Virus record (IMG/VR): IMGVR_UViG_3300044632_002565
Span: 1 to 62,365 of that record
From: a virus
Direction: 5' to 3' (one strand)
DNA length: 62,365 bases
The translations under genes were made by a program, and so were the position numbers. Positions 9,055 to 57,539 of the stretch are shown piece by piece (positions within the stretch are counted from its first letter, which is position 1; each line of letters starts with the position of its first letter). The notes beneath the pieces are model-generated. The model saw nothing but the letters and a program-made list of their open reading frames with translations. It did no database searches and was not told the DNA's origin.

Positions 9055-9135
9055 TTACCGAACCACGCATAGGTTAGTCACCCAACAAATTTCTTGTTGC
9101 TCACTAAACTCTATATGATAGTTCGTTGTTTTCAT
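9055..9135 (-). CDS. Possible 26-aa peptide before a terminator
   Basis: An ATG at 9135 opens 26 codons ending TAA at 9055. The remaining leader to the terminator contains a second hairpin AACTC-TTCA-GGAGTT. It could be a small peptide gene or, as likely, a small structured RNA. No family recognised. Confidence 0.3.
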   Translation of the reverse strand: MKTTNYHIEFSEQQEICWVTNLCVVR

Positions 9136-9186
9136 ACTAAAATAAATATATTCTTTTTCATAAAAGTGTCAAGTGTAGGGTGTCAA

Positions 9187-9402
9187 TTAGTGATTACCAT
9201 TTGTTAGTGAAACGCCATGTCTAAATCCTTGAATGAATAACTCAATTTCTTCTTCATTCATATTTTGATAAAATTCACCAACGGTTACTCCGACCTCATT
9301 GCCTAAATCGGAGATATCACCAATATATTTAATTTCCAACGCTTTTTCTTTTAAAGCATCGGTAATCGAAATCAAACTGACGGGCGAAAATAGTCTTTCC
9401 AT
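9187..9402 (-). CDS. Small protein in tRNA operon
   Basis: 71 residues, 10 nt after the tRNA-Leu 3' end. Mostly helical and acidic ('YQNMNEEEIELFIQGFRHGV' at residues 45-64). No family recognised. Position and composition fit a real small phage gene. Confidence 0.55.
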   Translation of the reverse strand: MERLFSPVSLISITDALKEKALEIKYIGDISDLGNEVGVTVGEFYQNMNEEEIELFIQGFRHGVSLTNGNH

Positions 9403-9412
9403 ATCTTTTTTT

Positions 9413-9501
9413 TGGTACCTGAGGCCGGAGTCGAACCGGCACGGACATTACTGTCCAAGAGATTTTAAGTCTCTCTTGTCTACCTATTTCAACACTCAGG
9501 T
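9413..9501 (-). tRNA. tRNA-Leu(TAA)
   Basis: Class II tRNA with a long variable arm. Acceptor ACCTGAG/CTCAGGT, anticodon stem AGAGA/TCTCT, loop CTTAAAA, anticodon TAA. The CCA is encoded (9413-9415). A -7-like TATTTTTG sits at 9515-9508, 6 nt upstream. Confidence 0.94.
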
Positions 9502-9527
9502 GATATTCAAAAATAGTAAAAAAAATT

Positions 9528-10253
9528 TTAGTTAGAAAATTTTTCTTCAAAAATTGTGTTGGTCACATTTTGTTCTACGTTCTCTATAAAATTGAGAGTA
9601 ATTTCTCGTGAGTTTAAATCAAACACAAATTCTCCTTGAGAGCCTTCGTTTATTTCCCAACCCCCATAATTGTTTGACAATTGTTGATAGCACCAATCTT
9701 CAACATTAGTAGGGACAGATAGATTATTCTCAAAGTTACTCTCTATATATCCACTATCGCCAGAACCATAAAACTTCAAAGTAAAAATTGAATCTCGTAT
9801 ATTTTCATTATTGGCCATTTCTATCACTGCACCAAAAAGTGGTTCAATTTCCTCTTCGTCGTCATATACCAATACCCGTGTATCTGATGTATCATAATAG
9901 GTGTAAAAATCAGATACTGATATAGTTTCAGTGATTGTATCTATTTCAATTTCAACTCTTCTATAATTTATATCATCTACATCGGGATTATCATCATACA
10001 AACCTTTTTCGTAAATAAAATTAAAAATTTTTGAGAATATTTCTTGTAATTCTTCAGTAACTTCAATTTTGAAATTATTTGAAAAAGATTTTATTTCAGA
10101 AAAATCAATGTCATTTATATCATATTCTTCAACATCAATTTCAATCAAACCGTCTTTCATTCCTAAGGCTCTGAAATATCTGGTATAAGACCTTAAATAT
10201 TTTTTATCTTCTAAGGATAATATTGATGGGAGGCTTTTTTTGTTTTTTTTCAT
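9528..10253 (-). CDS. DUF6878-like acidic protein
   Basis: 241 residues, strongly acidic. The C-terminal half has 'LKFYGSGDSGYIES', 'WCYQQLSNNYGGWEINEGSQ' and 'GEFVFDLNSREITLNF', the layout of DUF6878 proteins (a G-x-GDSG block, a W-E-x-N-x-G-x-x-G block and a final T-I-T-L strand). The family is of unknown function, found in bacteria and mobile elements. The N-terminal ~100 residues are unrecognised. A TATTTATT motif lies just upstream (10257-10264). Confidence 0.6.
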   Translation of the reverse strand: MKKNKKSLPSILSLEDKKYLRSYTRYFRALGMKDGLIEIDVEEYDINDIDFSEIKSFSNNFKIEVTEELQEIFSKIFNFIYEKGLYDDNPDVDDINYRRVEIEIDTITETISVSDFYTYYDTSDTRVLVYDDEEEIEPLFGAVIEMANNENIRDSIFTLKFYGSGDSGYIESNFENNLSVPTNVEDWCYQQLSNNYGGWEINEGSQGEFVFDLNSREITLNFIENVEQNVTNTIFEEKFSN

Positions 10254-10274
10254 AAAAATAAATATATTAAATGT

Positions 10275-10889
10275 TCAATTCCAACTATTTTTATCGTAAC
10301 CAAAGATTTCGAAATCGGTTTTGAATTTTTCAAAAATGAATTTAGACAAGTCTTCATTATATTCTCTTTTCCAATAGTCACAATCTGTTTCTCTGTAATT
10401 ATTTTTTATAATATTTTCAAAAAATATTATTTGAAGATTATCATTAAAATTATTTTCTATAATTTTTATATCCATCAAATCATCATAAAGATTTTCAACT
10501 TTCACTAAATAATCAGGTTTTTTATTAAAGTTCAAATAAATTTTTGATAACCATAATTGATTGGGATTGGTGTTTGATTCTTCAGAATCATCTACAATCT
10601 TCCGTATCCAACTTTCAAATTTAAGAGTTGAATATATTTTTTCTTTTTTAATCATATCAAAAATTGATACAATCCTTTTATATGGATTATGAACATTCAT
10701 TATAAATGTATAATCATCACAACCTTGAATTATTTCTTCATTATGATTTTGAATTACGTCGAAGTCAAAATATTCCATAATTGGAGTACAAGACCTCGAA
10801 GCTGTACTCAAAGGAGTGAACCATAAAATTTTATGTCTGTGAGAATAATTCAATCTTCGAATTCTAATTTTACAGTTTTCAACATCCAT
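10275..10889 (-). CDS. Sulfotransferase-like protein 1
   Basis: 204 residues. 'KILWFTPLSTASRSCTPIM' has the PAPS 5'-phosphosulfate loop pattern (PxxSASR...T), and 'MNVHNPYKRIVSIF' has the 3'-phosphate-binding NPYxRxVS block. The family moves sulfate from PAPS to sugars or other acceptors. The ATG overlaps the upstream gene by 40 nt; a TTG at 10853 would reduce the overlap, so the start is uncertain. A paralogue is at 53824. Confidence 0.65.
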   Translation of the reverse strand: MDVENCKIRIRRLNYSHRHKILWFTPLSTASRSCTPIMEYFDFDVIQNHNEEIIQGCDDYTFIMNVHNPYKRIVSIFDMIKKEKIYSTLKFESWIRKIVDDSEESNTNPNQLWLSKIYLNFNKKPDYLVKVENLYDDLMDIKIIENNFNDNLQIIFFENIIKNNYRETDCDYWKREYNEDLSKFIFEKFKTDFEIFGYDKNSWN

Positions 10890-11203
10890 ATGGGTCTTTT
10901 ATTCTCGTTCAAATTGTTTATCCATTCCTTTGCCGAAGGTATATAGTTATTACAATCTTCTTTTACGTGTTGTTCGCCCACATAACGTGTATAAACAGTT
11001 TTTCCATCTGAGTTTTTGAACTCGGTTCCAAACCTTTTTTCCATCTCAAAAATACCCTCAGAATGATGTCTGAACATTCTATGAAGTGAATCTCCAAACC
11101 AACTTTTTGTTTCGTCTAACCATTCGTGGAGGTGGATATAATCTTCGGGTTTCCCACCGAATTTCTTGGCTGAACTTTTTGCGTGTAGATTCGGATGTGC
11201 CAT
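10850..11203 (-). CDS. DUF6915-like protein
   Basis: 117 residues. 'MAHPNLHAKSSAKKFGGKPE', 'LHEWLDETKSWFGDSLHRMF', 'RHHSEGIFEMEKRFG' and 'YVGEQHVKEDCN' match the conserved blocks of DUF6915, a small family in bacteria, plasmids and phages with many fixed His residues that could bind metal. Function unknown. First protein gene after the Thr/Asn/Pro tRNA trio on this strand. Confidence 0.75.
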   Translation of the reverse strand: MAHPNLHAKSSAKKFGGKPEDYIHLHEWLDETKSWFGDSLHRMFRHHSEGIFEMEKRFGTEFKNSDGKTVYTRYVGEQHVKEDCNNYIPSAKEWINNLNENKRPIWMLKTVKLEFED

Positions 11204-11229
11204 ACTCAGTTTTTATATGATTCAGTTTG

Positions 11230-11302
11230 AGCCAGAGACAGGAATCGAACCTGCGACATACTGATTACAAATCAGTTGCTCTACATGCTGAGCTACTCGG
11301 GC
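11230..11302 (-). tRNA. tRNA-Thr(TGT)
   Basis: Acceptor GCCCGAG/CTCTGGC with one C-T mismatch, anticodon stem ACTGA/TCAGT, loop TTTGTAA, anticodon TGT. Confidence 0.9.
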
Positions 11303-11306
11303 GAAG

Positions 11307-11380
11307 CGTCCTCTCAAGGGCTCGAACCTTGGACCTAGTGATTAACAGTCACTCGCTCTAACCGACTGAGCTAAGAAGAC
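11307..11380 (-). tRNA. tRNA-Asn(GTT)
   Basis: Acceptor GTCTTCT/AGAGGAC, anticodon stem AGTGA/TCACT, loop CTGTTAA, anticodon GTT. Confidence 0.93.
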
Positions 11381-11385
11381 GTTTG

Positions 11386-11459
<74 letters not shown>

Positions 11460-13568: not shown

Positions 13569-15236
13569 ATGAAAGTCTTAGGTTTTTCTAATGGCCACGA
13601 CAAAGGAGCGGTCATAATTGAAGACGGTAGAATACTTGTCGGTATAACACAAGAAAGATTATCGAGAATTAAACACGATGGGGCATACCAAGGTGGAAAA
13701 ATACCCTTTGAGTCAATAAATTATTGTCTGAACGCTATAGGTTGTTCAATTAGGGAAATTGATTATTTTGTTTATAGTACCACTGAAAATATTGATGACG
13801 TCGAAGACCAATTTTTTTCAAAATTCTCACATGTGAGTAGAGAAAAAATTCAATTCATTCCTCATCATTTAGCACACGCATACTCAAGTTTTTTCAGTTC
13901 GGGATATGATGAAGCAGCTGTTGTTGTGGCCGATGCCTCAGGTAGTATAATCACTTATAAAAATAAAACTCATGAGTGGTATGACCCTAAAAAATGGGAT
14001 TTAAATCCTGATTTTGATTGGGCCGAGGGAATTTCAATTTTACATCTAAAAAAGGATTCTTACGAAGAACATTATAAAAGATGGGTGAAGTTTCCTGTTC
14101 CATGGAACACAAATGAAGAAACATCTTTAGGTACCATGTATTCTGAAGGTACATTACAACTTGTGTATGAACCTTCGAACCATACTTGGAGTGCCGGTAA
14201 ACTAATGGGATTAGCTTCTTATGGGGACCCAAAATTAGTTTCAGAAGCACCAGATTTTGTTAAAGAGATTGATGGAGAATTATCTATTCTCAATAACAGT
14301 ATTTACCCAAAAGTTAAATGGTCATCTGATTTCTTTTCTCGGTCAGTTGCTGCCGGAATTTATCAAAGGGAACAAGAAAGAGCTTCTTTGATTTTAGCTA
14401 AAATGGCTAAAAATATGACCAATTCCAATAACATTTGTGTGGCCGGAGGGTCTTTTCTAAATTGTAATTCAAATGAGCTTATTTTGAAATCAGGTTTGTA
14501 TGAAAATTGTTTTTTCTTACCTCCTGCCGATGATAGCGGTATTCCCCTCGGGTGTGCTTGGTACGCATATCAAAAAATGACTGAAATAAAAAATACAACA
14601 AAAATTTCACCTTATTTCGGAAGACCATACCACAAAAATGAAATTATATCCGCTTTAAATGAATACCCTGAGTTAGATTTTAAAGAATATAAAGATTTCA
14701 ATGAGTTGGTTGAACAAGTTACTTATTGGTTGACACAAAATAGAGTCATTGGATGGTTTCAAGATGGTTCTGAAATAGGTCCCAGAGCCTTGGGTAACAG
14801 GTCAATTATTGCATCACCAATTACAAAATGGATGTGTGGCCACATAAATGCCGACATTAAAGGAAGAGAGTGGTATCGTCCTTTCGCTCCAGCAGTTCTC
14901 TACGAGTATCAAAGTGAAATATTTGATATGGATTATTTATCTCCACATATGTTAGTGACAACAACTGTGAAGGAATCTTGGAGAGAAAAAATACCCTCAG
15001 TTGTCCATGTAGATAATTCAGCAAGAATTCAGTCCGTTACGGAAAAAAATAATTATAAATTTTATACCCTTATTAAAAGTTTTTATGAAAAAACTCAGGT
15101 TCCTGTACTTTTAAACACAAGTTTTAACGGACCGAGTGAACCAATTGTGGAAACTCCAAATGACGCAATAAAAACTTTTATAAATTGTAATTTAAATTAT
15201 TTGGTACTGAATAATTTTTTAATTTGGAAAAACTAA
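13569..15236 (+). CDS. Carbamoyltransferase 1 (NodU/CmcH family)
   Basis: 555 residues, full family length. The N-terminal Kae1-like domain has 'IPHHLAHAYSSFFSSGYDEA' (the HxxxH metal pair) and 'LMGLASYGDP'; then 'CVAGGSFLNCNSN'. The C-terminal domain has 'GWFQDGSEIGPRALGNRSII', 'REWYRPFAPAVLYE' and 'VPVLLNTSFNG'. The family makes O-carbamoyl groups on hydroxyls from carbamoyl phosphate via carbamoyl-adenylate. Phage members include enzymes that carbamoylate 5-hydroxymethylcytosine in DNA; sugars are the alternative. One nt before the second copy, so co-translated. Confidence 0.9.
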   Translation: MKVLGFSNGHDKGAVIIEDGRILVGITQERLSRIKHDGAYQGGKIPFESINYCLNAIGCSIREIDYFVYSTTENIDDVEDQFFSKFSHVSREKIQFIPHHLAHAYSSFFSSGYDEAAVVVADASGSIITYKNKTHEWYDPKKWDLNPDFDWAEGISILHLKKDSYEEHYKRWVKFPVPWNTNEETSLGTMYSEGTLQLVYEPSNHTWSAGKLMGLASYGDPKLVSEAPDFVKEIDGELSILNNSIYPKVKWSSDFFSRSVAAGIYQREQERASLILAKMAKNMTNSNNICVAGGSFLNCNSNELILKSGLYENCFFLPPADDSGIPLGCAWYAYQKMTEIKNTTKISPYFGRPYHKNEIISALNEYPELDFKEYKDFNELVEQVTYWLTQNRVIGWFQDGSEIGPRALGNRSIIASPITKWMCGHINADIKGREWYRPFAPAVLYEYQSEIFDMDYLSPHMLVTTTVKESWREKIPSVVHVDNSARIQSVTEKNNYKFYTLIKSFYEKTQVPVLLNTSFNGPSEPIVETPNDAIKTFINCNLNYLVLNNFLIWKN

Positions 15237-15237
15237 A

Positions 15238-16833
15238 ATGAGTAGAATTTACGGTATGTTCACCGGCTCGCATAGCCCGTGTATAGCTTACTTAGAAGAT
15301 GGAGAAATAATTTTTTCTTTAGAGGAAGAACGTTTGACCAGAATAAAGGCTGGTGATAATTTTGACATTCAAGCTGAACTTTGTTTGAATAGAGCTGAAA
15401 TAGAAACAAAAATCAAATTTCATGAAGCCGATTACAGAGTAATAGCTCAACCTGTACCTGATGAATTTTTGAGAAAAATTTCCAAAGGACAACCTTACGA
15501 AAGAGTAAGTCATCACACCGCTCATGCCTACGGTGCTTATTTTACAAGTGGACTCGAAGGTAAAGCAATTACAATAACTTACGACGGGGGTGGTCAAGAA
15601 TCTGTAATGAAAATTTTTTTATGTGAAGATGGAAAAATGACTTTAATAAAAAATATACCATACGCAGGTTTTGGTAGTTTATCTCATTTATGGGGTTTCA
15701 GCACATCTAGCATGAGAGGTTACGATGAATACAACGAAGGGAAATGGAAAATGTGTAAAGATGAGGGAAAACTTATGGGAATGGCCCCTGATGGGTTTTA
15801 CGATGAAAAAATTTATAAAATTTTGAATTCATTGGTGAATTATGAAAATTTAAGATTTTTTCCTTCAGGAACCGCGTCAAAAACACAATTTGTTTGTGAC
15901 ATGATGTTTGAAGATGGCTTTTTTGAAAGTCAAATGAACAAAGAAATTTTTTGTTTCAATCTTCAAAAATTGACAAATGACTTGATGTTGAGATTCATAA
16001 ATGATTTACATAACTTATATCCTGAATATACAAAACTTTGTTTTGCTGGTGGCCTTTTTGCAAATGTGAAACTGAATCAACACATAAACGAATTACCTTG
16101 GGTTGATGAGGTTTATATTTTACCACCTATGGGTGATGAGGGATTAGCATTAGGTGCTGCAATATATAAGGCTGTAGAGATTGGTGAGTGGTCCAAACCG
16201 AGACGTCTAAAAAATGTTTTTTTTGGTTCAAAATACTCTGAAGAAAAAATTCAAAGGTCATCAACTTATTATAATTTCAAAAGAAAAGAATATGATGTAA
16301 AAGAGATGGCAAAAAAAATTGCCGATGGTAAAATAGTCGGATGGTTTAATGGAGGTTCTGAATTAGGTCCTAGAGCTTTGGGTGCGAGAAGTATCTTAGT
16401 GAAACCTACGGACAAAGAAACCCATAAAATTCTAAACGGAAGACTTAAAAGATATGATACAATGCCCTTTGCACCAATTGTTATGTCTGAACATTTTGAT
16501 GAAATTTTCACCTGTTCAAAATCAAAGTATACCGCAGAATTCATGACTATGTGTTATTCAACAAAAGAGGAATGGATTGACAAAATTCCAGCAGTAATCC
16601 AAAAATCGGACAAAACAGCAAGACCTCAAATTGTGGTAAAAGAGTCAAATCCAAAGTTTTGGGAAATCTTGAATGAATTTTATTTGATAACAGGTATTCC
16701 TGTTCTTTTAAACACATCATTCAATTCTCACAACGAGCCGATTGTTGAACATCCTCGTCATGCCTTTGATTCTTTACAAAAAAAAATAATAGATGAACTC
16801 ATATTAGAAGATTATGTATATTACTCTGAATAA
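15238..16833 (+). CDS. Carbamoyltransferase 2 (NodU/CmcH family)
   Basis: 531 residues, full length and clearly diverged from its neighbour. 'RVSHHTAHAYGAYFTSGL' holds the HxxxH pair, 'YDGGGQE' the nucleotide-binding glycines, then 'KLMGMAPDG', 'CFAGGLFANVKLNQ', 'GWFNGGSELGPRALGARSIL' and 'IPVLLNTSFNSHNEPIVEHP'. All signature blocks are intact in both copies, so two carbamoylation reactions or a heteromeric enzyme are possible. It overlaps the next gene by 20 nt. Confidence 0.9.
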   Translation: MSRIYGMFTGSHSPCIAYLEDGEIIFSLEEERLTRIKAGDNFDIQAELCLNRAEIETKIKFHEADYRVIAQPVPDEFLRKISKGQPYERVSHHTAHAYGAYFTSGLEGKAITITYDGGGQESVMKIFLCEDGKMTLIKNIPYAGFGSLSHLWGFSTSSMRGYDEYNEGKWKMCKDEGKLMGMAPDGFYDEKIYKILNSLVNYENLRFFPSGTASKTQFVCDMMFEDGFFESQMNKEIFCFNLQKLTNDLMLRFINDLHNLYPEYTKLCFAGGLFANVKLNQHINELPWVDEVYILPPMGDEGLALGAAIYKAVEIGEWSKPRRLKNVFFGSKYSEEKIQRSSTYYNFKRKEYDVKEMAKKIADGKIVGWFNGGSELGPRALGARSILVKPTDKETHKILNGRLKRYDTMPFAPIVMSEHFDEIFTCSKSKYTAEFMTMCYSTKEEWIDKIPAVIQKSDKTARPQIVVKESNPKFWEILNEFYLITGIPVLLNTSFNSHNEPIVEHPRHAFDSLQKKIIDELILEDYVYYSE

Positions 16834-18234: not shown

Positions 18235-19581
18235 TTAGAGCGCAGACATTCTAACAACCAAGTTCTTTGCGTTTTCTGTGAATTTATTGTACATTTCACA
18301 CACGGAGTCCTCCAATTTTGAATTCAAATTTTCTAAAAAAGCTGGATTTTTCAATGTGTCCAATAAACTTGTGTTCACAACATCACTCTGAATTATATTT
18401 TCTGAATTCATTTTTTTTGTAAGTTCCTCTGATATTGAAGTTGAAATAAAATTTGTTAAAGATTCACAATTTCCCATAGCGGGTATGATTAGTGTTCCTT
18501 TAGTTTGAATATTTGTCAAAACTTTATTTTTCAAATCTTCATCGAGGCCAATTTTGGTTAGTAGTGAGATAATCAGAGGTTCAGATATCGCACCAATCAT
18601 GCCTTCCATACTTTTCCCATATAAATTCTGAAAAATATCAGTTAGATTTTCTTTTATCAAACCAAGCTCTAATAATTCGGAGGATTCTTTTAGAAATCTG
18701 AAACCAAATCTGACCTTTTTAACTCTATTCATAGTTTCAAACTCAGACAAATTTTCTATTACAATTTTCAATCTACTTTCACATATTTTACCAAGAATCA
18801 CTTTGTTTTCCTTTAGTCTTTTTGTTTCCACCAAAACTTCTTTCACGAGTGAATTCAAATTTTTGTTTTCAATTAGAGGTAAATTTACAATCTTATATTT
18901 TCCCTTATCTTTATCTCTTTGAGCATAGTTTGCAAGTGTTTGTAACATTGTATTTATTTCCTGTTTAGTTTTCCTATTGAGTTTTTTCATGTTTTCCTGT
19001 CTTGCACATTTGGACACACTATTTTTAACAACATCGTGAAATTGACCTAAATCAGGTCCTGGAGCGTTTTTTGAATACTGAAAGAATAACTTGATTGCTG
19101 CTATACAGTCTTTAGTCTTTATTTCTTGTAATGGACTATTCTTGGCCGCATTCAAGGCATCTTTAAGAGTTGGGTCAATTGACTCTTCACCGTCTGTGTT
19201 TTGGTTATTTTGATTTGTATTTTTATCATTTGTTTGATTTGGTACAGGTGGTTTTGTGGATTTTGATAATTCGGCTTGCAACGGTCTACAAGTCCATATG
19301 TGAAATTCTTGAGGATTTAGGGTTTTGATTATTTTTCCTAATTGTTGTAATCCTCGGCTGTCTTTATTGTTGACATCGGGTTCAAATGTTATTTGCCAAT
19401 CCGCCTTTGATTCATTACCCTTAGCAAATAGAACCACATTACCATCTTTTTCTTGTGGTGTTTCAGGATTTATTGTTAAATCCAAACTATCAAAACAACC
19501 CAACTCAATTGCTTTGGTCAGATTTGTTGTTTTAGTTTGTTTATCTGTAGCTTGTTCTTTTAATATTCTTTTATATTTCAT
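18235..19581 (-). CDS. Large leader-bearing protein, last gene of virion-type operon
   Basis: 448 residues starting 'MKYKRILKEQATDKQTKTT', where I-L-K-E|Q resembles the leader cleavage site of other proteins here. A beta-rich N-domain (to ~110, with 'VLFAKGNESKADWQITFEP') is joined by an Asn/Gln/Thr linker to a long helical part with 'CIAAIKLFFQYSKNAPGPD'. No family recognised. Last of five co-directional genes with 1-nt to 7-nt junctions. The size and linkage suggest virion or ejected proteins. Confidence 0.6.
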   Translation of the reverse strand: MKYKRILKEQATDKQTKTTNLTKAIELGCFDSLDLTINPETPQEKDGNVVLFAKGNESKADWQITFEPDVNNKDSRGLQQLGKIIKTLNPQEFHIWTCRPLQAELSKSTKPPVPNQTNDKNTNQNNQNTDGEESIDPTLKDALNAAKNSPLQEIKTKDCIAAIKLFFQYSKNAPGPDLGQFHDVVKNSVSKCARQENMKKLNRKTKQEINTMLQTLANYAQRDKDKGKYKIVNLPLIENKNLNSLVKEVLVETKRLKENKVILGKICESRLKIVIENLSEFETMNRVKKVRFGFRFLKESSELLELGLIKENLTDIFQNLYGKSMEGMIGAISEPLIISLLTKIGLDEDLKNKVLTNIQTKGTLIIPAMGNCESLTNFISTSISEELTKKMNSENIIQSDVVNTSLLDTLKNPAFLENLNSKLEDSVCEMYNKFTENAKNLVVRMSAL

Positions 19582-19583
19582 AA

Positions 19584-21059
19584 TTAAAATTTTGTTTTTT
19601 GATTCGAAAATTCTGGTTTTGGTGTTTGTTGTTGCACAACGGGTGATGGAGTTGGTGTGGGAGGTTTCGGTGGTTCGGGTCCAGGTCCTGGCCTTTTTTC
19701 GTTTTGGGATAAAAGTAATTGATAGGTTTTTTTGTCTATAACACCACTTCCAGGTCTGTTCAAGGTGTATAAACCATTTGTACTTTGATAAATTTTCACC
19801 GCCTTTTCCATATATGGCCCAAACTTATCATCTGTTGTTTCGGATTCACCATTACCCCTAAGTACATCAAACAAATATGATTGGAAAACTGGCATTTCTT
19901 GAATTTTACTTACGATAGGACCTGACATGCACTTGGTTATCTTTTTTTGACCTGAAAGAACCTCTTTTTCGGTTGGGGCATTTGAATATGCCTTGCATGA
20001 TTTTATATCAGGTTGTTTTTGAGTTTTTTTCTTTGTATCTTCTTGACCATTACCGTCGTCGTCTTCGCTTTCTTCATTACCTCCCAAAGCCTCTTTAGGG
20101 TCATAAACTTTTCCATTATCCCATTTTATGATAAAAGAAGTATTGTCGTCTGCACACTCCCATTTTCCTTTTTTAATTATTTTTTCACCTTCTCTTGTCC
20201 TGTGATAAGCGGTGTAATCCTCATCAAAAGCATATTCGGTTTTTTCTCCGTTTACTCTTTCACTAATTGCAACCCATGTCTGAGGTTTATTCAATTTATA
20301 AGATAGTAAAACATAACCATTGTCATTCAAAAAAACATTTATACACTTCCAAACATCATCTTTAATTTTTTCTTTTGCACCTCCACCTCCTCCACCATCT
20401 TGGTCATCAGAAATTTTTGTAACATTACGCTCAACCTGAATATTATTATTATTCATAATTCTGAATCTACCTTTGATTACTTTTCCATCAGCATCTTTGA
20501 TAAAATCTAAATCATACTTTTCATCTCTCGACTTGAAGTTATCGCCATTTTGAATTAGAAGTACTCTTCCTACAATTAGTTTATAGTATAAGTTGTCATT
20601 TTCGGCATCTATATTGTAAACTTCAAAGGTTTCATCATCTTGATAATCTCCCGCATAAGGTTCCAATTTAGGTTTTCTTTTCAAAGCATAATTTCTCGAA
20701 AATTTTCTTTTGTCGTTCGTTATAAGGATAAGGTTTTTTCTATTTCTTTCACCATCTTTCAACCTCCTTTCCATAATAGTTTCCCAAACATATTTTATGT
20801 ACTCTTTTTTAAAAAAGAGTTTTCTGAAGTATTCTAAACTTTGTAAAAAATCAGTAGTAGTCCCTCGCAGTGGAAATTGGATTTTATCGGTTGGATTTTC
20901 TTTGTTATAATCCAATATATCATTGTAAAGTGTTCGAACTCTTTCCTCATTTTTATTCAAATCCTCTCCAGTAAGTTTACGCAACTCCTCTTCGAAATTT
21001 TGGAAAATATCTACCCAATTTACTGGTGGTATATCTATTTGTTCAGAAAGATTTTTCAT
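19584..21059 (-). CDS. Large virion-type protein with peptidoglycan-binding-like domain
   Basis: 491 residues. It starts 'MKNLSEQIDIPPVNW'. Several short beta repeats of the type 'WVAISERVNGEKTEYAF' / 'ECADDNTSFIIKWDNGKVYD' occupy the middle. Near residue 395 'SGPIVSKIQEMP...FGPYMEKAVKIYQSTNGL...GVIDKKTYQLLL' reads as a peptidoglycan-binding repeat (x-V-x-x-I-Q...FGP-x-T/M-x-x-A-V...G-x-I-D-x-x-T). The C-terminus is proline-rich. The start shares one base with the upstream stop (TAATG). It may bind cell wall during entry. Confidence 0.65.
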   Translation of the reverse strand: MKNLSEQIDIPPVNWVDIFQNFEEELRKLTGEDLNKNEERVRTLYNDILDYNKENPTDKIQFPLRGTTTDFLQSLEYFRKLFFKKEYIKYVWETIMERRLKDGERNRKNLILITNDKRKFSRNYALKRKPKLEPYAGDYQDDETFEVYNIDAENDNLYYKLIVGRVLLIQNGDNFKSRDEKYDLDFIKDADGKVIKGRFRIMNNNNIQVERNVTKISDDQDGGGGGGAKEKIKDDVWKCINVFLNDNGYVLLSYKLNKPQTWVAISERVNGEKTEYAFDEDYTAYHRTREGEKIIKKGKWECADDNTSFIIKWDNGKVYDPKEALGGNEESEDDDGNGQEDTKKKTQKQPDIKSCKAYSNAPTEKEVLSGQKKITKCMSGPIVSKIQEMPVFQSYLFDVLRGNGESETTDDKFGPYMEKAVKIYQSTNGLYTLNRPGSGVIDKKTYQLLLSQNEKRPGPGPEPPKPPTPTPSPVVQQQTPKPEFSNQKTKF

Positions 21060-22921
21060 TATTGTTGTTCTAATTCTAATGCAACACTATCTGCATCAGG
21101 TAGTTTAATATTATCAGCATTTACTTCACCATTTGATTCTTCCTCGGTGACTTTTTTCAATTCCTTTTGTTTTTCTTCGGATTTACCAATTATTGGTTTT
21201 ATGTCAGGTCTAAATGCACCGATGGTATAAGGTAAGTTTGCAACAAATCCCCAAGCTTGTGCTACTACTGGTAACGCGGTTGCTATGATTCCCGCATACC
21301 CCTTACTTACAATAGATTTTCTTAAAGCATCGGCAAACCCATCGGGTATGGCCATTGTTATAGCAGACCAACCTTCTCTTTCCATTTCTGACTGCTCAGC
21401 AAGATAAGGACACCATCCCTCTTCAGCTACACCCGTGTCGGGGTTTACTTTATACATTAGACTGGGTACCCAAACAGAAATCATTTCACAAACTTCTGTT
21501 ATAATTTTACCGATTGGTTTGATTACAAATTCTTTGAAAATTTCCCCTCCTACGCTCAGTATAAAACCTGCTGCCGATGCAACTGAAGTCCAAACTACAC
21601 CTTCACCTAAAGCCGACCAAAATCTTGGATTTTTGGAAAGTAATTTATTTTTTGCCGCAATTTGATATAACGTATCAAAGCCAGACCACGATTGTGTCCA
21701 AAACCAAGTCCCAATATTCGTTTCAGGATTTAACAAGTCTTTCACAATTGTTTTCCATTTTAGGGTAAAGAAATCCAATAAGAATTTAGAAATAGTTTTT
21801 ATAAAATTTCTACCAGCACTTACCACAGATTCCCAAATATTGGTACGTACTGAACTCTTTGCCGATGCAAAACATTCATTGAAATATTTGAAAAAATCAT
21901 CTTGATTATTTCTGAAATGTGCAACTATATCATCAGGTAAACCTGAATCTTCCAAAATTTGTATTGCGTCGTCACCAAATTTTAACTTAGCCTTTCTTAA
22001 AATTATAGAAACTTGTTGAGCATAAGCAGCACTTAAAGTGTCCAATGTTTCTTTCTGAGCTTCCGCAGGTAATTTAGAAGCCCTAATAACATCGTCAGCA
22101 TATGCCTCCATATATCCCAAAACCGTAGATTCATAATCTTGTAATGTTTTTCCCCAACTTTTGAAAATACTTGTGAAAAGGGTATTTCTCTTTCCCAAAA
22201 ATCTTTTCAAATAATTTATACGGGGTTCACTCAACGGAATTACTTTACCAGGAGCTTTTTTAACTACACGAGTTTTAAAATTCAGAGGGTTCTCATCAAA
22301 TTCTTTTAATCTTTTTTCAAATGTTGGAAGCAAAGTTTCTAAATCGAAAGTGTCATCAACTAGCCCAACACCACGTAACCAATCTGACAAATTCCACTCT
22401 CTACCCTCACTAAAGGCTTTTTTTCTAGCGTTGGACATCCATCTATAAAATGCTTTTTCAGACTTCAATGCGTCTGGGAATAAATCTGAGGTCTGTTTGA
22501 ACCAACTTTTCATAAATTCATTATAAAATTCATTTGCGTAGTCATCACCTAATGTCTGTAATAAACTTCTAATTCTACCTCTAAACATTTCTTCAGTTTC
22601 ATTACCTATTTTATTTGTAAATTGTTGATATGCTCGCATGAATTCATCACCTTCAGCATTCAATAATTTATAATACATGTTGTAAACATCTTCAGGTACA
22701 CTTCTCCCTGCAATTTTGAAAACGTTGGTTCTAACACCATTTTGAGTGATAATTTCTTCAATACTAGGGTTCAAAATTTTTCTTACTGTACCTCTCAAAC
22801 TTTTGAAAATTGGGGCAAAAAGGTTTTGCATTTGTTCATTCAAAGGGAACAAACCCATTATCTCTCTCATCCTATTTATATCCTCATTTAAGATATTTTG
22901 TTTTCTATATGAATTTTTCAT
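21059..22921 (-). CDS. Very large leader-bearing protein with hydrophobic segments
   Basis: 620 residues. The leader 'NEDINRMREIMGLFPLNEQ' is nearly the same as the start of the PPK2 at 37680 and ends in L-N-E|Q. The rest is largely helical, with several hydrophobic or amphipathic stretches (e.g. around residues 370-390, 430-460 and 560-580), as expected for a pore-forming or internal virion protein. No family recognised. Third gene in the operon 24868 to 18235. Confidence 0.65.
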   Translation of the reverse strand: MKNSYRKQNILNEDINRMREIMGLFPLNEQMQNLFAPIFKSLRGTVRKILNPSIEEIITQNGVRTNVFKIAGRSVPEDVYNMYYKLLNAEGDEFMRAYQQFTNKIGNETEEMFRGRIRSLLQTLGDDYANEFYNEFMKSWFKQTSDLFPDALKSEKAFYRWMSNARKKAFSEGREWNLSDWLRGVGLVDDTFDLETLLPTFEKRLKEFDENPLNFKTRVVKKAPGKVIPLSEPRINYLKRFLGKRNTLFTSIFKSWGKTLQDYESTVLGYMEAYADDVIRASKLPAEAQKETLDTLSAAYAQQVSIILRKAKLKFGDDAIQILEDSGLPDDIVAHFRNNQDDFFKYFNECFASAKSSVRTNIWESVVSAGRNFIKTISKFLLDFFTLKWKTIVKDLLNPETNIGTWFWTQSWSGFDTLYQIAAKNKLLSKNPRFWSALGEGVVWTSVASAAGFILSVGGEIFKEFVIKPIGKIITEVCEMISVWVPSLMYKVNPDTGVAEEGWCPYLAEQSEMEREGWSAITMAIPDGFADALRKSIVSKGYAGIIATALPVVAQAWGFVANLPYTIGAFRPDIKPIIGKSEEKQKELKKVTEEESNGEVNADNIKLPDADSVALELEQQ

Positions 22922-22928
22922 TGCCTCA

Positions 22929-24617
22929 TTATTTTTTCTTAGGTTTTATGAAAAGTTTTGTACCAATAAATATTGTTTCATTACTAATCTCTTCATCTTC
23001 ATTGAAGTCTTTATATTGTTTATAACCCAAATCCGTATATTTTTTGATATTTTTTGGTGTGTCAGCTATTTCAGTTTCCAAAGTATCTCCTTTTTCAGGG
23101 TCCTCTTGAAACTCTATGTATTCCTCAGGACCAATAATATCTTTCATGTGGGTATTGACGACTTTTGAAATAGTTGAGTCGAAGTGTTTCCCTTTTTCTG
23201 GTAATTGGGTTTTGAACCTTTCTACAACCTCTGGAACTTTTTCTGGATGGTTTGCAAGATTATATTCAAATTCTTTTTTGTGAGACTCTGGAATTGTACG
23301 ATATACACTCGCTAAAACCATTTTCTCCTCGTCGTTGAGTTGTCTACCTAAAAAAACTTCAACTCCCAAACCAAGTACAGCGATAAAACCGGCCCATCCA
23401 AGTTCTTTAGCCATCACACTTTTCAGAAATGAAATTCTCCAAAATTGTTCAGGAGTTTGACCAACAGTTTTAGCTGCTAAATTCACAAGAGCCTTAGGGT
23501 TTTCAACAAATTCTTTTATAGTTTTTTCAATCAATTCTTTTGTCAAATCATCTCCACCATTGAATATTTGTGTAAACAATCTTTGTTTTTCTAATCCCAA
23601 AGGACCACTTTCTGCTAATTCTTTATAAAATTTCATGACATCGTCTGAAGTTTCCAAAGTAACTTTACTTAGGTCATCAGCTAAAGAATTGAAAACTTCG
23701 GGTTTAACTCCTCTGAATGCGGTACTACCTCTAAGAAGTGGAATACCAGACAGAAGAAAAGTTAAAACCCCTGAAACATTATTACCTTTTTGAAATTCTC
23801 GAACTCCAACTACACCACCAATTCCAACCACACTAAATAAACTCTCCATAATCCACGCTTGAGCGGCTGAAAGGCCATACCTAGCTGATAACCCCCTTGT
23901 CAAAATTGCAAGACCCACAAACGCAAGTATTTGTTTCCACCAAGAAAAATTATCCGCAAATTTTTGATAAGCGTTTCGAGAATCAGTGGGTTCTTCATAC
24001 CAAGGACCACTACCTTTTATACCACCAAGATAATAACCTGTGAAATGCCAAGTTTTATCTTTTTGTTGGGTTATAATACATTTATATTCTTCAGAATCAT
24101 TTGACAGTTGAAATTTAAAAACAGTATCAACAGGCAATATATCCCTCATATTATTAAATAATAGGTCTCTATAAGCATTTTTTTCTTGTTCGGTTGCGGT
24201 TGGACTTAATGGAAATTTTTTTGCTAAGTAATCGGCCGTTGCTTTCCAATCTGTAGGATTAGTAAAGCTTATCGTTGCATTCTGAGGAATCCAAATTCCA
24301 ACTTTTTCTGAGGATGAAACATTTTGTTCTGGTCTTGCATATCTACAATATCCTTGATAACCTGTAGCTTCCCCTTCGTCAACTTTAACAGCCATATTGG
24401 GATATTTGCAGTAGTTTGGATATTCTTCTGGGTTATATTCTTCGGGGGCTTCTGTTGGAGGATTCGCAGGTGCTCCTGGAGTGCCAGCCCATACACCCCC
24501 CATTTGTTCGGTAATAGATTGTTTATTCTCAGTCAAAGTTTTTTTGGAATCATATTTCATTTTCAATAAAATTGATTCCAAACTTTCCTTTGGTGTAAAA
24601 TTTTTATTTTTTTTCAT
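22929..24617 (-). CDS. Large leader-bearing protein with membrane-like segments
   Basis: 562 residues. It starts 'MKKNKNFTPKESLESILLK', followed by 'TLTENKQSITEQMGGVW', where I-T-E|Q would be the processing site (residue ~40). A Pro/Glu-rich stretch follows, then a Cys/Tyr/Pro block ('YPNYCKYPNMAV', 'YCRYARPEQ'), a hydrophobic region near residues 235-300 and a helical tail. Alanine/glycine-rich hydrophobic segments suggest membrane interaction during ejection. No family recognised. It overlaps the preceding gene by ATGA. Confidence 0.65.
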   Translation of the reverse strand: MKKNKNFTPKESLESILLKMKYDSKKTLTENKQSITEQMGGVWAGTPGAPANPPTEAPEEYNPEEYPNYCKYPNMAVKVDEGEATGYQGYCRYARPEQNVSSSEKVGIWIPQNATISFTNPTDWKATADYLAKKFPLSPTATEQEKNAYRDLLFNNMRDILPVDTVFKFQLSNDSEEYKCIITQQKDKTWHFTGYYLGGIKGSGPWYEEPTDSRNAYQKFADNFSWWKQILAFVGLAILTRGLSARYGLSAAQAWIMESLFSVVGIGGVVGVREFQKGNNVSGVLTFLLSGIPLLRGSTAFRGVKPEVFNSLADDLSKVTLETSDDVMKFYKELAESGPLGLEKQRLFTQIFNGGDDLTKELIEKTIKEFVENPKALVNLAAKTVGQTPEQFWRISFLKSVMAKELGWAGFIAVLGLGVEVFLGRQLNDEEKMVLASVYRTIPESHKKEFEYNLANHPEKVPEVVERFKTQLPEKGKHFDSTISKVVNTHMKDIIGPEEYIEFQEDPEKGDTLETEIADTPKNIKKYTDLGYKQYKDFNEDEEISNETIFIGTKLFIKPKKK

Positions 24618-24868
24618 GCGGTTCCCAATTTATTTGCAACCCCTCTGGCAGGTCCACCATGGATTTGAGCCCAAAATTGTCCTTTTTTCGGTAGACTATT
24701 TGCGACACCTCTTCTCGGTCCTCCAACAGTATCGGCCCATTTAGAAGGATTATTACCCTTACCACCTGTTCCACCACCGGCAGCATCTTGTTCTCCCATC
24801 TCCATTTTGGAAGAATTTGTAGTATTTTTCTCAAAAAATTTAATCAGATTTTCTACGTCCAAGTTCAT
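24614..24868 (-). CDS. Small Gly-rich protein with two GGPxRGVAN repeats
   Basis: 84 residues, first gene of the five-gene operon. After a helical start (MNLDVENLIKFFEK) comes a Gly-rich stretch and two copies of a motif: 'WADTVGGPRRGVANSL' and 'WAQIHGGPARGVANKL' (16-residue units). The repeat could bind a repeated partner in the virion. The alternative frame 24604-24834 lacks such order. Coupled to the next gene by ATGA. A TATTTATC motif lies just upstream. Confidence 0.6.
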   Translation of the reverse strand: MNLDVENLIKFFEKNTTNSSKMEMGEQDAAGGGTGGKGNNPSKWADTVGGPRRGVANSLPKKGQFWAQIHGGPARGVANKLGTA

Positions 24869-33773: not shown

Positions 33774-33859
33774 GGAAGTGTGGCAGAGTTGGTCTATCGC
33801 GCTAGTCTTGAAAACTAGAGACCTTAACGGGTCCGTTGGTTCGAATCCAACCGCTTCCG
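33774..33859 (+). tRNA. tRNA-Ser(TGA)
   Basis: Class II tRNA. Acceptor GGAAGTG/CGCTTCC, anticodon stem CTAGT/ACTAG, loop CTTGAAA, anticodon TGA, long variable arm. No CCA. Confidence 0.93.
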
Positions 33860-33860
33860 C

Positions 33861-36388: not shown

Positions 36389-36580
36389 ATGAAAAATTTA
36401 GTGGGATTTTTATTTCTTTTCTGTAGATTTTATTGCGCTTATAAAATATTCATGTGGTTGTTCCAACGAAACTATTATAAAAATAATTTACCAATATCAG
36501 AAATTGAAAACATATTGGTTTTCATAATTTTTGATATATGGATAATGATATCAATACGGGAGATAAATAAAGATTACTAA
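36389..36580 (+). CDS. Small two-span membrane protein
   Basis: 63 residues from the ATG at 36389. Two hydrophobic segments, 'LVGFLFLFCRFYCAYKIFMW' and 'ILVFIIFDIWIMISI'. No family recognised. Ends inside the PPK2 stop region (4 nt overlap). Confidence 0.5.
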   Translation: MKNLVGFLFLFCRFYCAYKIFMWLFQRNYYKNNLPISEIENILVFIIFDIWIMISIREINKDY

Positions 36581-37680
36581 GGTCGTAAAACAGCTAAAAC
36601 TTCCGGATACACACCCTCCAAAACCTTTTCGTTTTTACCTTCGTATGGTATGTTTTGCAAAACATATCTTATAGAATTCAAACCTGAAATTCTTTTATCT
36701 TGTGAATCAATAATAACCCAAGGGTGATTTATTGTTGAAGTTTTATCAAATAATTTTTCTTTAAATTCTGTAAACCTGTCCCACAAATCTTGCATTTGGG
36801 CATCGTTTGGAGAATATTTCCAATATTTCAATGGAGATTGTTGCCTCATTTGAAATCTTCTTTTCTGTGTTTCTTTATCTATAGAAAACCATAATTTGAA
36901 AAGATAATCTCCCTCCTTCACCAAATCGTTTTCGAAATCCTCAACGTTTTCCATAAAATCTTCATATTCCTCAGGGGTTCCATAACCCATGACAGGCTCA
37001 ACCAACCCTCTGTTATACCAACTCCTATCAAAAAAATTTATCATACCAGGTTGTATTCTATCTTTATACCTGTTCCACCAATTTTTTCTTTCATCAGGTG
37101 TAGGTATACCCAAAGCAATCACGTTATAATATCTCGGATTCAAATTCTCTGTAAATTTTTTTATTGTTGAGCCCTTACCCGCCGAATCTCTACCTTCGAA
37201 GACTATTATCACCGTTTTTCCCGTTTTTCTCAACCACTCTTGTAGTTTGACCAATTCAATTTGTAAGTAGTATAATTCTTTTTTATATATCTTTTTGGGT
37301 AAAATTGATGGTTCCTCGGGTTCAAATTCATAATCTTCACTTTCTGGTTCGACACCATAACCCCCTCTTTCCCTGAATTTCAAGGAAATAATAATATTTT
37401 TAAAATATTCTTCAATGTTCTTTTTTTTATCCCCTTTTTTCAGAAGAATTTTTCTTAAACCCCTATCCACCATTTCAAAATCAATAATTCTATCCTCGGA
37501 TAATTTTGAAATTTTCCAAAGTAACCCCTCGATTTTTTTATTATATAATTTCAAGAAAGTTAAAGTATCAACAACTTTTTTTAAATTGACATTCATGAAG
37601 GGAGCATCTTCAGGATTTTTTTTACCCTCAGAAAGACCCATAACAAACCTAATTCTTTCTACATCATTTAATAAATTCAT
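36577..37680 (-). CDS. ppk2: Polyphosphate kinase 2 with virion-type leader
   Basis: 367 residues. The C-terminal ~250 residues are a complete PPK2: Walker A 'VIVFEGRDSAGKGSTIKKF', 'GIPTPDERKNWWNRY', Walker B 'NFFDRSWYNRGLVEPVMGYG', lid 'KRRFQMRQQSPLKYWKYSPN' and 'PWVIIDSQDKR'. PPK2 moves phosphate between polyphosphate and nucleotides, usually making NTP from NDP or NMP. The ~110 extra N-terminal residues start 'LNDVERIRFVMGLSEGKK', nearly the leader of the large protein at 22921 ('INRMREIMGLFPLNEQ'). With the late-type motif upstream, packaging into the virion is likely. Confidence 0.9.
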   Translation of the reverse strand: MNLLNDVERIRFVMGLSEGKKNPEDAPFMNVNLKKVVDTLTFLKLYNKKIEGLLWKISKLSEDRIIDFEMVDRGLRKILLKKGDKKKNIEEYFKNIIISLKFRERGGYGVEPESEDYEFEPEEPSILPKKIYKKELYYLQIELVKLQEWLRKTGKTVIIVFEGRDSAGKGSTIKKFTENLNPRYYNVIALGIPTPDERKNWWNRYKDRIQPGMINFFDRSWYNRGLVEPVMGYGTPEEYEDFMENVEDFENDLVKEGDYLFKLWFSIDKETQKRRFQMRQQSPLKYWKYSPNDAQMQDLWDRFTEFKEKLFDKTSTINHPWVIIDSQDKRISGLNSIRYVLQNIPYEGKNEKVLEGVYPEVLAVLRP

Positions 37681-37692: not shown

Positions 37693-37700
37693 TATAAATA
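37693..37700 (-). promoter_or_regulatory. TATTTATA late-type motif of ppk2
   Basis: Minus strand copy 12 nt before the ppk2 ATG. Confidence 0.45.
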
Positions 37701-37714: not shown

Positions 37715-37722
37715 TATTTATA
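37715..37722 (+). promoter_or_regulatory. TATTTATA late-type motif of the exported-protein operon
   Basis: Plus strand copy followed by GATTACCAAGTTACTAAC and the ATG at 37745. Confidence 0.45.
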
Positions 37723-37744: not shown

Positions 37745-38236
37745 ATGAAAAAATTATTCGTTTTAGCAATTTTTTTGCTATCTACCCTATTTTCATTTGG
37801 ACAAAACAAAAAGATTTGCTTGAATTCAATAGAAAACAAGATACAAATCGGTCAGATGATGGGAAATAGAAACCTTACTTTTGGTTTTAAAAACATTTTA
37901 TTAGAATATCTACAAGAAAAAGATTTACAACTTATTGACAGTTGTAATTTAGCTGATTTGAAAATTCAAATTGAATTAATTTACTTTGATGTTTTGAAAA
38001 CCAATTCGGGTTTTTCCGTAATCCATAAAGAAAACGACGAAACAGTTCTTAGGGTAAAGGCTAAGTTATTGAATACCGACGGAAAAAAAATCAAAGAAAC
38101 TTCAGTGACTGAAAAATCATCTGAAATATCAATGTCAACTTTGATAATTGCAGAAGGTGGTAAAATAAATCAACAATCCGTCTCAAATGTAATAAAAAAA
38201 TCATGCGAGACATTAATCAAAAATCTATTTGAATGA
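37745..38236 (+). CDS. Exported protein, weakly CsgG/FlgO-like
   Basis: 163 residues with a clear signal peptide (cleavage near 'FSFGQN'). The mature part ('LTFGFKNILLEYLQEKDLQL', 'ADLKIQIELIYFDVL', 'VLRVKAKLLNTDGKKIKETS') has the alternation of a small periplasmic alpha/beta domain like the CsgG/FlgO family, weaker than the protein at 41013. First gene of a seven-gene plus-strand group of mainly exported products; its stop overlaps the next ATG. Confidence 0.65.
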   Translation: MKKLFVLAIFLLSTLFSFGQNKKICLNSIENKIQIGQMMGNRNLTFGFKNILLEYLQEKDLQLIDSCNLADLKIQIELIYFDVLKTNSGFSVIHKENDETVLRVKAKLLNTDGKKIKETSVTEKSSEISMSTLIIAEGGKINQQSVSNVIKKSCETLIKNLFE

Positions 38237-40137
38237 TGAAAAAATTATTTACATTACTTTCATTATTGTCATTCCCATTTTTAGGTTTTTCACAGACACC
38301 AGAAATTGGTCACTTCCAACAATTGAAAACTGTAAGAAGAGGTGACACGTTAGATGTTGCTTGGTATTACAAACCAGCAGCTGGTACGGATGTGAGAAGT
38401 TTCCAAGTGGATTGGCAATATAAAAAACGACTTTTCACCCACATATCAACAACTGTTGATGTTGCGGTTAGTGGAAACGGTCCTGAAATTTCTTACAGAA
38501 GTTGGGAAGATTACAAATATCAATCTTACTCAAGTGGAAATTATACTTATGTGTCCGACACAAACTGGACTATTGCAAGAAACTATTTGGTTTTATCTAA
38601 CGGTTCACAGGTTTCTTCGAACGGATATATAATTCACAACAAATATATAATAAACAACGTAATCCCAAATTTCGTTTCAGATACTGTTACGTTAAATTGG
38701 GCTAGAATGTTTAAGGTTGACGGAACAACAATTGGTGACAATGTAGCGATTTTAAATTACAACAAACTCGCGGTAAAATTACTTGGAAATCTTACAATTT
38801 CAGGTAAGGTTTGGCTTCCACCATCAGTAGTTACAAGAGGATGGGTTCCAACTTTATATTGTTACGAAAATGCAACAGGAAATCTGGTTTCAACAACAGT
38901 TCCAGACATAAACACAGGTTTATACGTTTTGGACAACATCGATGAAAATACAAGATATAAAATTGAACTAAGATTTAATCCTGACAGTTTGGTTTCAATC
39001 AGAGATAATTCAGTTACAGTTACAGATGCGGTAAAAGCTTTCAACGAATTTGTGAACGCTGACATTTCGCAAACTTACCCTCGTACCTACTTACAAAATG
39101 GATTGGCATATTTGATTGCAGATATAAATTGGAACCAAAAATTTGACGGGGGTGACCCTTATGGTATTTACGCTTCGGTTTCAGGACTCAGACCTATTGC
39201 AACTAATAACTTGATAAAAGTTTTTACCAAAAACGAATTTGATAGTTTGGCTTTGGGTATAAACCAATGGTCAGATTGGACAACTTACAATAGTAGACAA
39301 AATTTTGTTTTGGATACGGTTCTTACATCTAATTTGTCACTTGATTTGAAATACTATATACAAGGGGATGTTGATAGAAGTCACTCCTCTCCTGTTTATG
39401 ACGCTAATGGAAACCTTGTAAGAGGTCCTGTTTACACGGGAAGATATAGTGTCAATATTCCTAACTCATACTCTGTAGGTCAACCTATGTTTGTACCATT
39501 TAACGTGTCAACAAACGGATTAGTGAATTATGGACTACAATTTGAAATGAAATATGACCCGACAAAAGTTAAATTTACAGAAATAATATCGAAAGTTCCG
39601 AATGAATGGTTACAATATGTAACTCATGATGACCAAAATGGAATCATCAGATTCGGTGGAATGAATAATCAAAAAAAGGGGGGGATAATTGGTTTATCCA
39701 CCCCCTTTAATTTAAAATTTACGCCAATTGACCCTTCGGAGGATATTTCTTCTTATGTTTTTGTTAGACAACTAATGGACGCCTCCAATTCTGAAGGTGA
39801 ACATTTCAATATTGAATTAGCATCTGAAAGAATAGTTTTAACTTATAGAGCGGCAGGGCCAATATTAGCCGTAACGAAGCCTATTGCAGAAATCAGACCA
39901 AATCCAAATTCGGGACAATTTGAATTAACTGTTACATTTCCGAATAATTATTGGATGAAAGGTTATGTTTATGATTACAACGGAAGAAAGGTTTTGGATT
40001 TAGGAGATTTCAAAACCGATGAGTTTACAAACGTAATCACAAGAGCAATTAACGCCAAAAATCTAGCACAAGGTAAATATTTGTTAGTGATGGCGAATAA
40101 TAATGAAAGAATAACTAAACCATTTGTAAAAATTTAA
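38233..40137 (+). CDS. Large exported protein with cohesin-like domain and T9SS sorting tail
   Basis: 634 residues. Signal peptide to about residue 20 ('FPFLGFSQTPE'). Beta-rich repeats, a dockerin-like block near residues 285-400 ('LIADINWNQKFDGGDPYGIY', 'SGLRPI', 'YYIQGDVDRSHSS'), a cohesin-like beta sandwich near 410-540 ('LQFEMKYDPTKVKFTEII'), then a C-terminal ~85-residue domain starting 'EIRPNPNSGQFELTV' and ending 'GKYLLVMANNNERITKPFVK', the type A sorting signal of the Bacteroidota type IX secretion system. It should be displayed on or released from the host surface. Confidence 0.8.
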   Translation: MMKKLFTLLSLLSFPFLGFSQTPEIGHFQQLKTVRRGDTLDVAWYYKPAAGTDVRSFQVDWQYKKRLFTHISTTVDVAVSGNGPEISYRSWEDYKYQSYSSGNYTYVSDTNWTIARNYLVLSNGSQVSSNGYIIHNKYIINNVIPNFVSDTVTLNWARMFKVDGTTIGDNVAILNYNKLAVKLLGNLTISGKVWLPPSVVTRGWVPTLYCYENATGNLVSTTVPDINTGLYVLDNIDENTRYKIELRFNPDSLVSIRDNSVTVTDAVKAFNEFVNADISQTYPRTYLQNGLAYLIADINWNQKFDGGDPYGIYASVSGLRPIATNNLIKVFTKNEFDSLALGINQWSDWTTYNSRQNFVLDTVLTSNLSLDLKYYIQGDVDRSHSSPVYDANGNLVRGPVYTGRYSVNIPNSYSVGQPMFVPFNVSTNGLVNYGLQFEMKYDPTKVKFTEIISKVPNEWLQYVTHDDQNGIIRFGGMNNQKKGGIIGLSTPFNLKFTPIDPSEDISSYVFVRQLMDASNSEGEHFNIELASERIVLTYRAAGPILAVTKPIAEIRPNPNSGQFELTVTFPNNYWMKGYVYDYNGRKVLDLGDFKTDEFTNVITRAINAKNLAQGKYLLVMANNNERITKPFVKI

Positions 40138-56008: not shown

Positions 56009-56410
56009 ATGGCTTATTCTGATAAAGTGTTAGACCACTACACAAATCCCCGAAATATAGGTACCTTGGATAAAAACAAGAAAAATGTTGGTACTGGTTT
56101 AGTCGGAGCACCAGAATGTGGCGACGTAATGAGACTACAGATTGAAGTCACTGAGGATGGCATTATTAAAGATGCAAAATTCAAAACTTTTGGTTGTGGT
56201 TCCGCGATAGCATCCTCGAGTTTGGCAACTGAATGGTTAAAAGGTAAAGATTTGGACGAAGCCATAAAAATCGACAACATGACTATTGTAGAAGAATTGA
56301 ACCTTCCACCGGTAAAAATTCACTGTTCAGTTTTAGCTGAGGACGCAATAAAAGCGGCCATAAACGACTACCGTAAAAAAAACGGTTATGAAGAAATACC
56401 AATAGAATGA
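56009..56410 (+). CDS. iscU: IscU iron-sulfur scaffold
   Basis: 133 residues, full IscU length. Cluster ligands Cys37 ('GAPECGDVMRL'), Cys63 ('TFGCGSAIASS') and Cys106 ('VKIHCSVLAEDA') and Asp39 are at the E. coli positions, and the HscA-recognition motif LPPVK (99-103) is intact. It would accept sulfur from a host IscS/SufS and iron, and pass 2Fe-2S/4Fe-4S clusters on. The upstream motif suggests late expression. Its stop overlaps the next gene by ATGA; IscA follows that gene. Confidence 0.92.
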   Translation: MAYSDKVLDHYTNPRNIGTLDKNKKNVGTGLVGAPECGDVMRLQIEVTEDGIIKDAKFKTFGCGSAIASSSLATEWLKGKDLDEAIKIDNMTIVEELNLPPVKIHCSVLAEDAIKAAINDYRKKNGYEEIPIE

Positions 56411-57206: not shown

Positions 57207-57539
57207 ATGGTAACAGTGACAAAAAATGCTAAAATGCACATTCTCAAACTGATGAATGATTCAGGTTTGGATACTGCAACTCATTTTTTACGAGTTGGTG
57301 TAAAAGGGGGAGGGTGTAGTGGACTATCCTATGTGATGGACTTCGATGATAAAAAAGATTCGACTGATGAAGTCGTTACTATTTCTGATGACCTCAAAAT
57401 TGTTATAGATAAAAAATCTTTATTATATATTTTCGGAACTGAACTCAACTACTCTGATGGGTTGAATGGAAAGGGGTTCGAGTGGGTCAATCCTAACGCA
57501 TCTCGTACTTGTGGTTGTGGTGAAAGTTTTGCACTCTAA
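57207..57539 (+). CDS. iscA: IscA/SufA-type A-type carrier
   Basis: 110 residues, full length. Ligands Cys37 ('VKGGGCSGLSYVMDF') and Cys102/Cys104 ('SRTCGCGESFAL') match the C-x(n)-CGC pattern of HesB/IscA proteins, which carry iron or Fe-S clusters from the scaffold to targets. With IscU this gives a two-part cluster-delivery set. IscS, HscAB and ferredoxin are not in the window. Convergent 4-nt overlap with the next gene. Confidence 0.92.
   Translation: MVTVTKNAKMHILKLMNDSGLDTATHFLRVGVKGGGCSGLSYVMDFDDKKDSTDEVVTISDDLKIVIDKKSLLYIFGTELNYSDGLNGKGFEWVNPNASRTCGCGESFAL

Follow-up and report, generated by a model that had tools for sequence, protein, structure and literature searches.

In phage T4, the residues of a capsid targeting sequence (CTS) direct packaging and are removed by gp21, which cuts after the motif L/I-X-E; a protein fused to a CTS is likewise packaged, and is then delivered into cells (PMC9026906). 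The propeptides of giant phages are thought to work like the T4 CTS (PMC5694885). A virus-encoded ppk2 has already been reported as an auxiliary metabolic gene and is said to boost polyphosphate accumulation (PMC13188868).

Here we describe a polyphosphate kinase 2 (PPK2) gene from a 62,365-nucleotide stretch of viral DNA (IMG/VR record IMGVR_UViG_3300044632_002565; "the window"). From sequence comparisons, we propose, with a probability of roughly 60%, that this PPK2 is a CTS-type internal protein in the head of a T4-like Bacteroidota phage, and that it would be ejected and act at entry. Phage ppk2 itself is known; what appears to be new is a packaging-type leader on a phage PPK2. Our literature searches, which covered few subscription journals, found no paper on polyphosphate kinase in huge phages, and none that links capsid targeting sequences to metagenomics.

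Table 1. Features of the PPK2 locus and of the second leader in the window. An arrow marks a predicted cut or cut-type site, here and in the text.
Feature	Position	Strand	Details
PPK2 gene	36577..37680	-	367 aa; matched at 70-100% identity, full length, in 80 IMG/VR loci
Leader MNLLNDVERIRFVMGLSE	37627..37680	-	residues 1-18; pattern conserved across 50 relatives; gp21-type cut predicted at LSE↓G
Basic four-helix domain	37372..37596	-	residues 29-103; pI 9.9; common to huge-phage PPK2s
Acidic disordered linker	37306..37371	-	residues 104-125; charge -8.1; pLDDT < 50 at 104-121
PPK2 catalytic domain	36580..37305	-	residues 126-367
Walker A GRDSAGKG	37171..37194	-	residues 163-170
Walker B region DRSWYNR	37009..37029	-	residues 218-224
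TATTTAT late-type element	37694..37700	-	-20 of PPK2 gene
TATAAATA element (T4 late -10 consensus)	37715..37722	-	-42 of PPK2 gene
Same-type leader on 620-aa protein (gene 21059-22921)	22835..22921	-	ends PLNE↓Q; 22.2 bits

A segment of a T4-like phage genome

Homologues of 57 of the window's 73 proteins are found in G001, a T4-like relative of 321 kb, and their order is mostly kept, so the window is a segment from a genome of the G001 kind. G001 encodes a T4-type major capsid protein (MCP), portal, terminase, and head-maturation protease. Eight of the 14 related records (each a fragment or of unstated completeness) have an S77 (gp21-type) protease, and no protease or capsid gene lies within the window fragment. 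The MCPs of G001, G004, and the cultured Flavobacterium phage immuto share an aligned x-x-E↓A site, which reads LINE↓A or IVSE↓A. Immuto also has a similar leader on two genes, with MKKQILSEQFRRMQKLAGIITE↓S near terminase, beside head genes.

The window carries 12 tRNA genes, 11 of them at 1994-11459 and the other at 33774-33860. A phage-encoded NifU/IscU-like scaffold (56009-56410, plus strand; PF01592, E 1e-52) lies close to the gene for an A-type Fe-S carrier (57207-57539, plus strand; PF01521, E 2e-16). At 38233-40137 (plus strand), the gene for a 634-aa protein whose C-terminal sorting domain is of the type IX secretion kind (PF18962, E 2e-7) stands in a row of signal-peptide-bearing genes also found in G001. 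Two neighbouring related genes occupy 13569-16833 (plus strand); the first is a carbamoyltransferase (PF16861/PF02543), and the second shares 28% identity with the G004 homologue of the first.

A complete PPK2 with an N-terminal extension

The initial annotation described the product as a complete PPK2, and we agree: PF03976 (PPK2) matches residues 129-351 (E 3.4e-72, Pfam), the product has Walker A, Walker B, and the lid, and both Walker motifs are invariant in 42 relatives. Purifying selection on the core is strong (dN/dS about 0.01-0.04). Rfam gave no match near the gene. The top solved relatives are PPK2 structures, with the class I enzymes of Francisella and Sinorhizobium in the lead; class I structures scored 228 and 215 bits, versus 151 for class II and about 96 for class III, with the two-domain 3czp set apart, and this is an ordering by score. 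By this similarity, the core may be class I-like, which would favour NDP phosphorylation.

About 125 extra residues precede the core: the leader (the first ~18), a basic four-helix domain, and an acidic linker. The extension had been described as ~110 extra residues that form the leader. It is indeed real (~110-125 residues), but the leader makes up only ~18 of them, and the rest is a separate domain and linker. Structure prediction of this region, which had been suggested as a check, gives a short leader helix at residues 3-13 with low confidence, a four-helix basic domain, and a disordered linker. The fold of the basic domain has no confident match among PDB or viral structures.

The leader in phage and bacterial PPK2s

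In IMG/VR, 135 candidate stretches encode PPK2 relatives; 80 of these were kept, and we recovered 51 distinct proteins. The leader is present on 50 of the 51, and the remaining one starts past the leader, on a truncated contig. Other phage PPK2s with like leaders, which the initial annotation had proposed to look for, were found in IMG/VR. The consensus leader of the 50 relatives is M-x-LLNEI-x-RIKSVMG-x. In 48 of them, [ILVMF]xE occurs within 7 residues of the nearly invariant MG (background, 18%): the leader end is strictly L/I-x-E in 36, with V or M in 12 more. The residue after [ILVMF]xE is Q, E, D, A, G, S, T, or N. Proteome-wide, [LIVMF]xE at N-termini is not enriched among the window's proteins and is slightly enriched in one relative. 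A tblastn search of cultured phages with the leader peptides gave no match, and these queries were probably too short.

We also considered whether the leader is an ordinary bacterial PPK2 N-terminus, and we rejected this because no bacterial PPK2 that we examined extends back to the leader. Among plasmids, no record out of 395 reaches 80% coverage of the query, and the matches listed start at 125-135. Among Pseudomonadota, 84 of 100 genomes have a match, and the matches listed begin near residue 100 or further on, except for one at 76. The Bacteroidota plasmid PPK2 (a sample of one record) has 244 aa and begins directly at the catalytic domain. A first scan of bacterial genomes gave no match and a second gave one locus. 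Alignment of the leader with bacterial PPK2 N-termini, which had been named in advance as an outcome that would count against a special leader, was seen in neither the plasmid nor the genome searches.

Unrelated proteins carry the same type of leader

We built a position-specific scoring matrix (PSSM) from the PPK2 leaders only and ran it over 2,628 proteins. There were 89 N-terminal matches, versus 1 interior match (at least 12 bits) in 373,226 positions and 1 in shuffled N-termini. The 89 matches come from 58 distinct proteins, which form nine sequence clusters; 50 of the 58 are the PPK2s used for the profile. By BLAST, the eight other carriers show no kinship to PPK2 or to one another; like a T4-type CTS, the window leader is a short N-terminal leader on unrelated proteins.

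Within the window, the sole leader carrier besides PPK2 is the 620-aa protein encoded at 21059, whose leader was said to be nearly the same. This likeness holds up: its N-terminus scores 22.2 bits, versus a best of 15.0 in 300 shuffles of all the window's N-termini. Its sole relative (L141) retains the leader (LLSEDINRMREIMGLIPLNE↓A, ending LNE↓A). G001 has six carriers besides PPK2, among them a glucosaminidase (PF01832), a P-loop protein of ATPase-like type, two proteins with ParB-like matches, and one with a weak match to a dual-specificity phosphatase. Five of the six sit in one region (L096), beside other N-terminal leader types (LTESDLIRLVKRVLKEQ and IITESQYNFLLEQ). The major head proteins are without the window-type leader, which we counted against packaging.

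Other leader-like starts were seen as well. In the leader region of G001, a C39-type peptidase (L097:3085-3759; PF13529) starts with MKIRLTEEKLVQIITEIVEQ. In the window, a five-gene run at 18235-24868 (minus strand) has leader-like starts (MKYKRILKEQ, MKNLSEQ, the leader of the 620-aa protein, and TLTENKQSITEQ); three of the five genes have no homologue in G001 or G004, and these are possibly lineage-specific cargo.

A late-type motif upstream

A late-type motif had been noted upstream of the PPK2 gene, and both TATTTAT and TATAAATA are found there (Table 1). TATTTAT occurs within 60 nt upstream of 48 of 50 PPK2 genes, versus 2% of random 60-mers; exact TATAAATA occurs within 80 nt upstream in only 18 of the 50 relatives. 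TATTTAT also precedes the portal, protease, sheath, tube, and head-completion genes. It was not found upstream of thyA, primase, or PhoH, nor upstream of the MCP, terminase, and baseplate genes, and the latter absence was counted against packaging.

In G001, TATTTAT lies within 120 nt upstream of 85 of 323 genes. It is upstream of 22 of 45 leader carriers in G001, versus 51 of 279 other genes (p = 2.6e-5, with carriers defined by simple regular expressions plus the profile), and this association is not significant in the window or in G004. On the sense strand, TATTTAT is strongly enriched 10-30 nt before start codons in both the window and G001; it is the reverse complement of T4 late TATAAATA.

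PPK2s of huge phages carry a different leader

Huge phages of 635-735 kb encode PPK2s that have this basic domain in common with the window's PPK2 but carry another leader. For LR756502 and LR745206, the N-terminal basic domain and the core are homologous to those of the window PPK2, and LR756501 is more distant. The leaders are of other types than the window's (M..F..FINEE and M..YDNFMNES): the PPK2s of LR756502, LR745206, and IMG/VR loci L116-L119 begin with M..F..FINEE or MRYLKSLNEEL, and their domain is homologous. These starts resemble those of neighbouring proteins (e.g., MKYLKRFNEEL and MIKKYNDFILES). In LR756502 (300 kb), 11 proteins have the huge-phage-type start versus 1.7 expected, which is a statistically weaker leader set, and no protein has the window type. 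Matches to S77-like proteases in the huge phages fall below the family cut-off, and a 404-aa huge-phage PPK2 query found no match in IMG/VR. In residue spacing, the huge-phage leaders presumably look like the T4 CTS; the Y4/F7 spacing that we take to be typical of the T4 CTS is not evident in the window PPK2 leader.

How the kinase might reach the host

We favour packaging because the leader is common to unrelated proteins, is strictly N-terminal, and ends in [ILVM]xE; because there are an S77 protease (in relatives, outside the window fragment), MCP x-x-E↓A sites, and TATTTAT near several head and tail genes; because the huge-phage PPK2s keep the domain and swap the leader for a neighbour-like one; because a similar leader stands beside the head genes of a cultured Flavobacterium phage; and because most of the window's proteins recur in the T4-like G001. 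The S77 protease and the L/I-x-E leader end are both features of T4-type CTS systems. The initial annotation had the enzyme made late with a packaging-type leader. The leader end, the gp21-type protease, the motif, and the leader switch in huge phages give this comparative support, whereas its term "virion leader" is still a putative one.

If PPK2 is packaged, then it would be made late, to judge only from the upstream motif, and the ~18-residue leader would act like a T4 CTS and bind the prohead core. The gp21-type protease would cut after LSE, ISE, or IKE, so that the basic helical domain and PPK2 would remain inside the head; the basic domain may tether PPK2 to DNA or to polyphosphate. PPK2 would then enter the host with the DNA and use host polyphosphate to turn NDPs into NTPs ahead of phage gene expression. 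We hold a broader version of this more tentatively, at a little below even odds: large T4-like Bacteroidota phages may inject a polyphosphate-powered kinase as head cargo, which would provide the incoming DNA with energy independent of host ATP, and lineage-specific interchangeable leaders may sort it along with many other enzymes.

The main alternative, which we consider unlikely but worth serious attention, is that PPK2 is an ordinary intracellular auxiliary enzyme during infection. The extension, including the leader, would then serve in regulation or oligomerisation, and N-termini like it on other proteins would mark some other destination (a replication or assembly compartment). Viral ppk2 has been reported as an ordinary auxiliary gene (PMC13188868), leader-bearing proteins are known from sequence alone and not as proven virion components, and the basic domain, not the leader, is the best conserved portion of the extension. 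However, the leader is also found on lytic and unrelated proteins, and it ends at a gp21-type site. It evolves fast, as a propeptide does (dN 0.2-0.35, dN/dS about 0.24, versus about 0.01 for the enzyme), which the basic domain does not, and in another phage lineage the leader differs while the domain stays.

More doubtful still is that a packaged PPK2 would remove host polyphosphate (a stress or silencing polymer) or work inside the prohead, instead of making NTPs at entry. The evidence for packaging would be the same, PPK2 runs in either direction on polyphosphate, and the basic domain could bind this polymer, but the class I-like similarity favours NDP phosphorylation. Lastly, the leader pattern is short and helix-like, but a chance or low-complexity likeness of amphipathic N-terminal helices is very improbable, and we reject it because none of the 300 shuffles attained the score of the 620-aa protein and because the matches are N-terminal rather than interior (89 versus 1, though 50 of the 58 distinct proteins built the profile).

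Comparison with known systems

If PPK2 is packaged, then an energy-metabolism enzyme arrives with the DNA and is not merely expressed after entry. This would change the reading of phage polyphosphate genes, which are at present described as accumulation helpers. The leader would also be a sequence handle for predicting the injected proteins of large T4-like Bacteroidota phages, which are mostly of unknown function.

The catalytic domain of bacterial class I PPK2s (Francisella, Sinorhizobium) is ~45% identical to that of the phage PPK2, with the same motifs, but the bacterial enzymes are without the leader and the basic helical domain. The viral ppk2 reported previously is phage-borne like the window gene, and the passages considered from that report mention no leader or packaging (PMC13188868). 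The ejection proteins of SPN3US and phiKZ are, as we propose here, propeptide-bearing internal proteins that are processed at gp21-like motifs (PMC5694885, PMC7411985); unlike the window's leader, their propeptides are mostly over 100 residues, and these phages belong to another group. The T4 CTS proteins (IPI-III and Alt) resemble the leader carriers in having a short N-terminal leader on unrelated proteins and an L/I-x-E cut-type motif, and T4 and the relatives of the window phage are alike in their S77 protease and T4-like head genes. The likeness of the window leader to the T4 CTS is apparently without direct sequence homology, and the cargo here differs from that of T4, being a polyphosphate kinase that also has a basic domain apart from its catalytic core.
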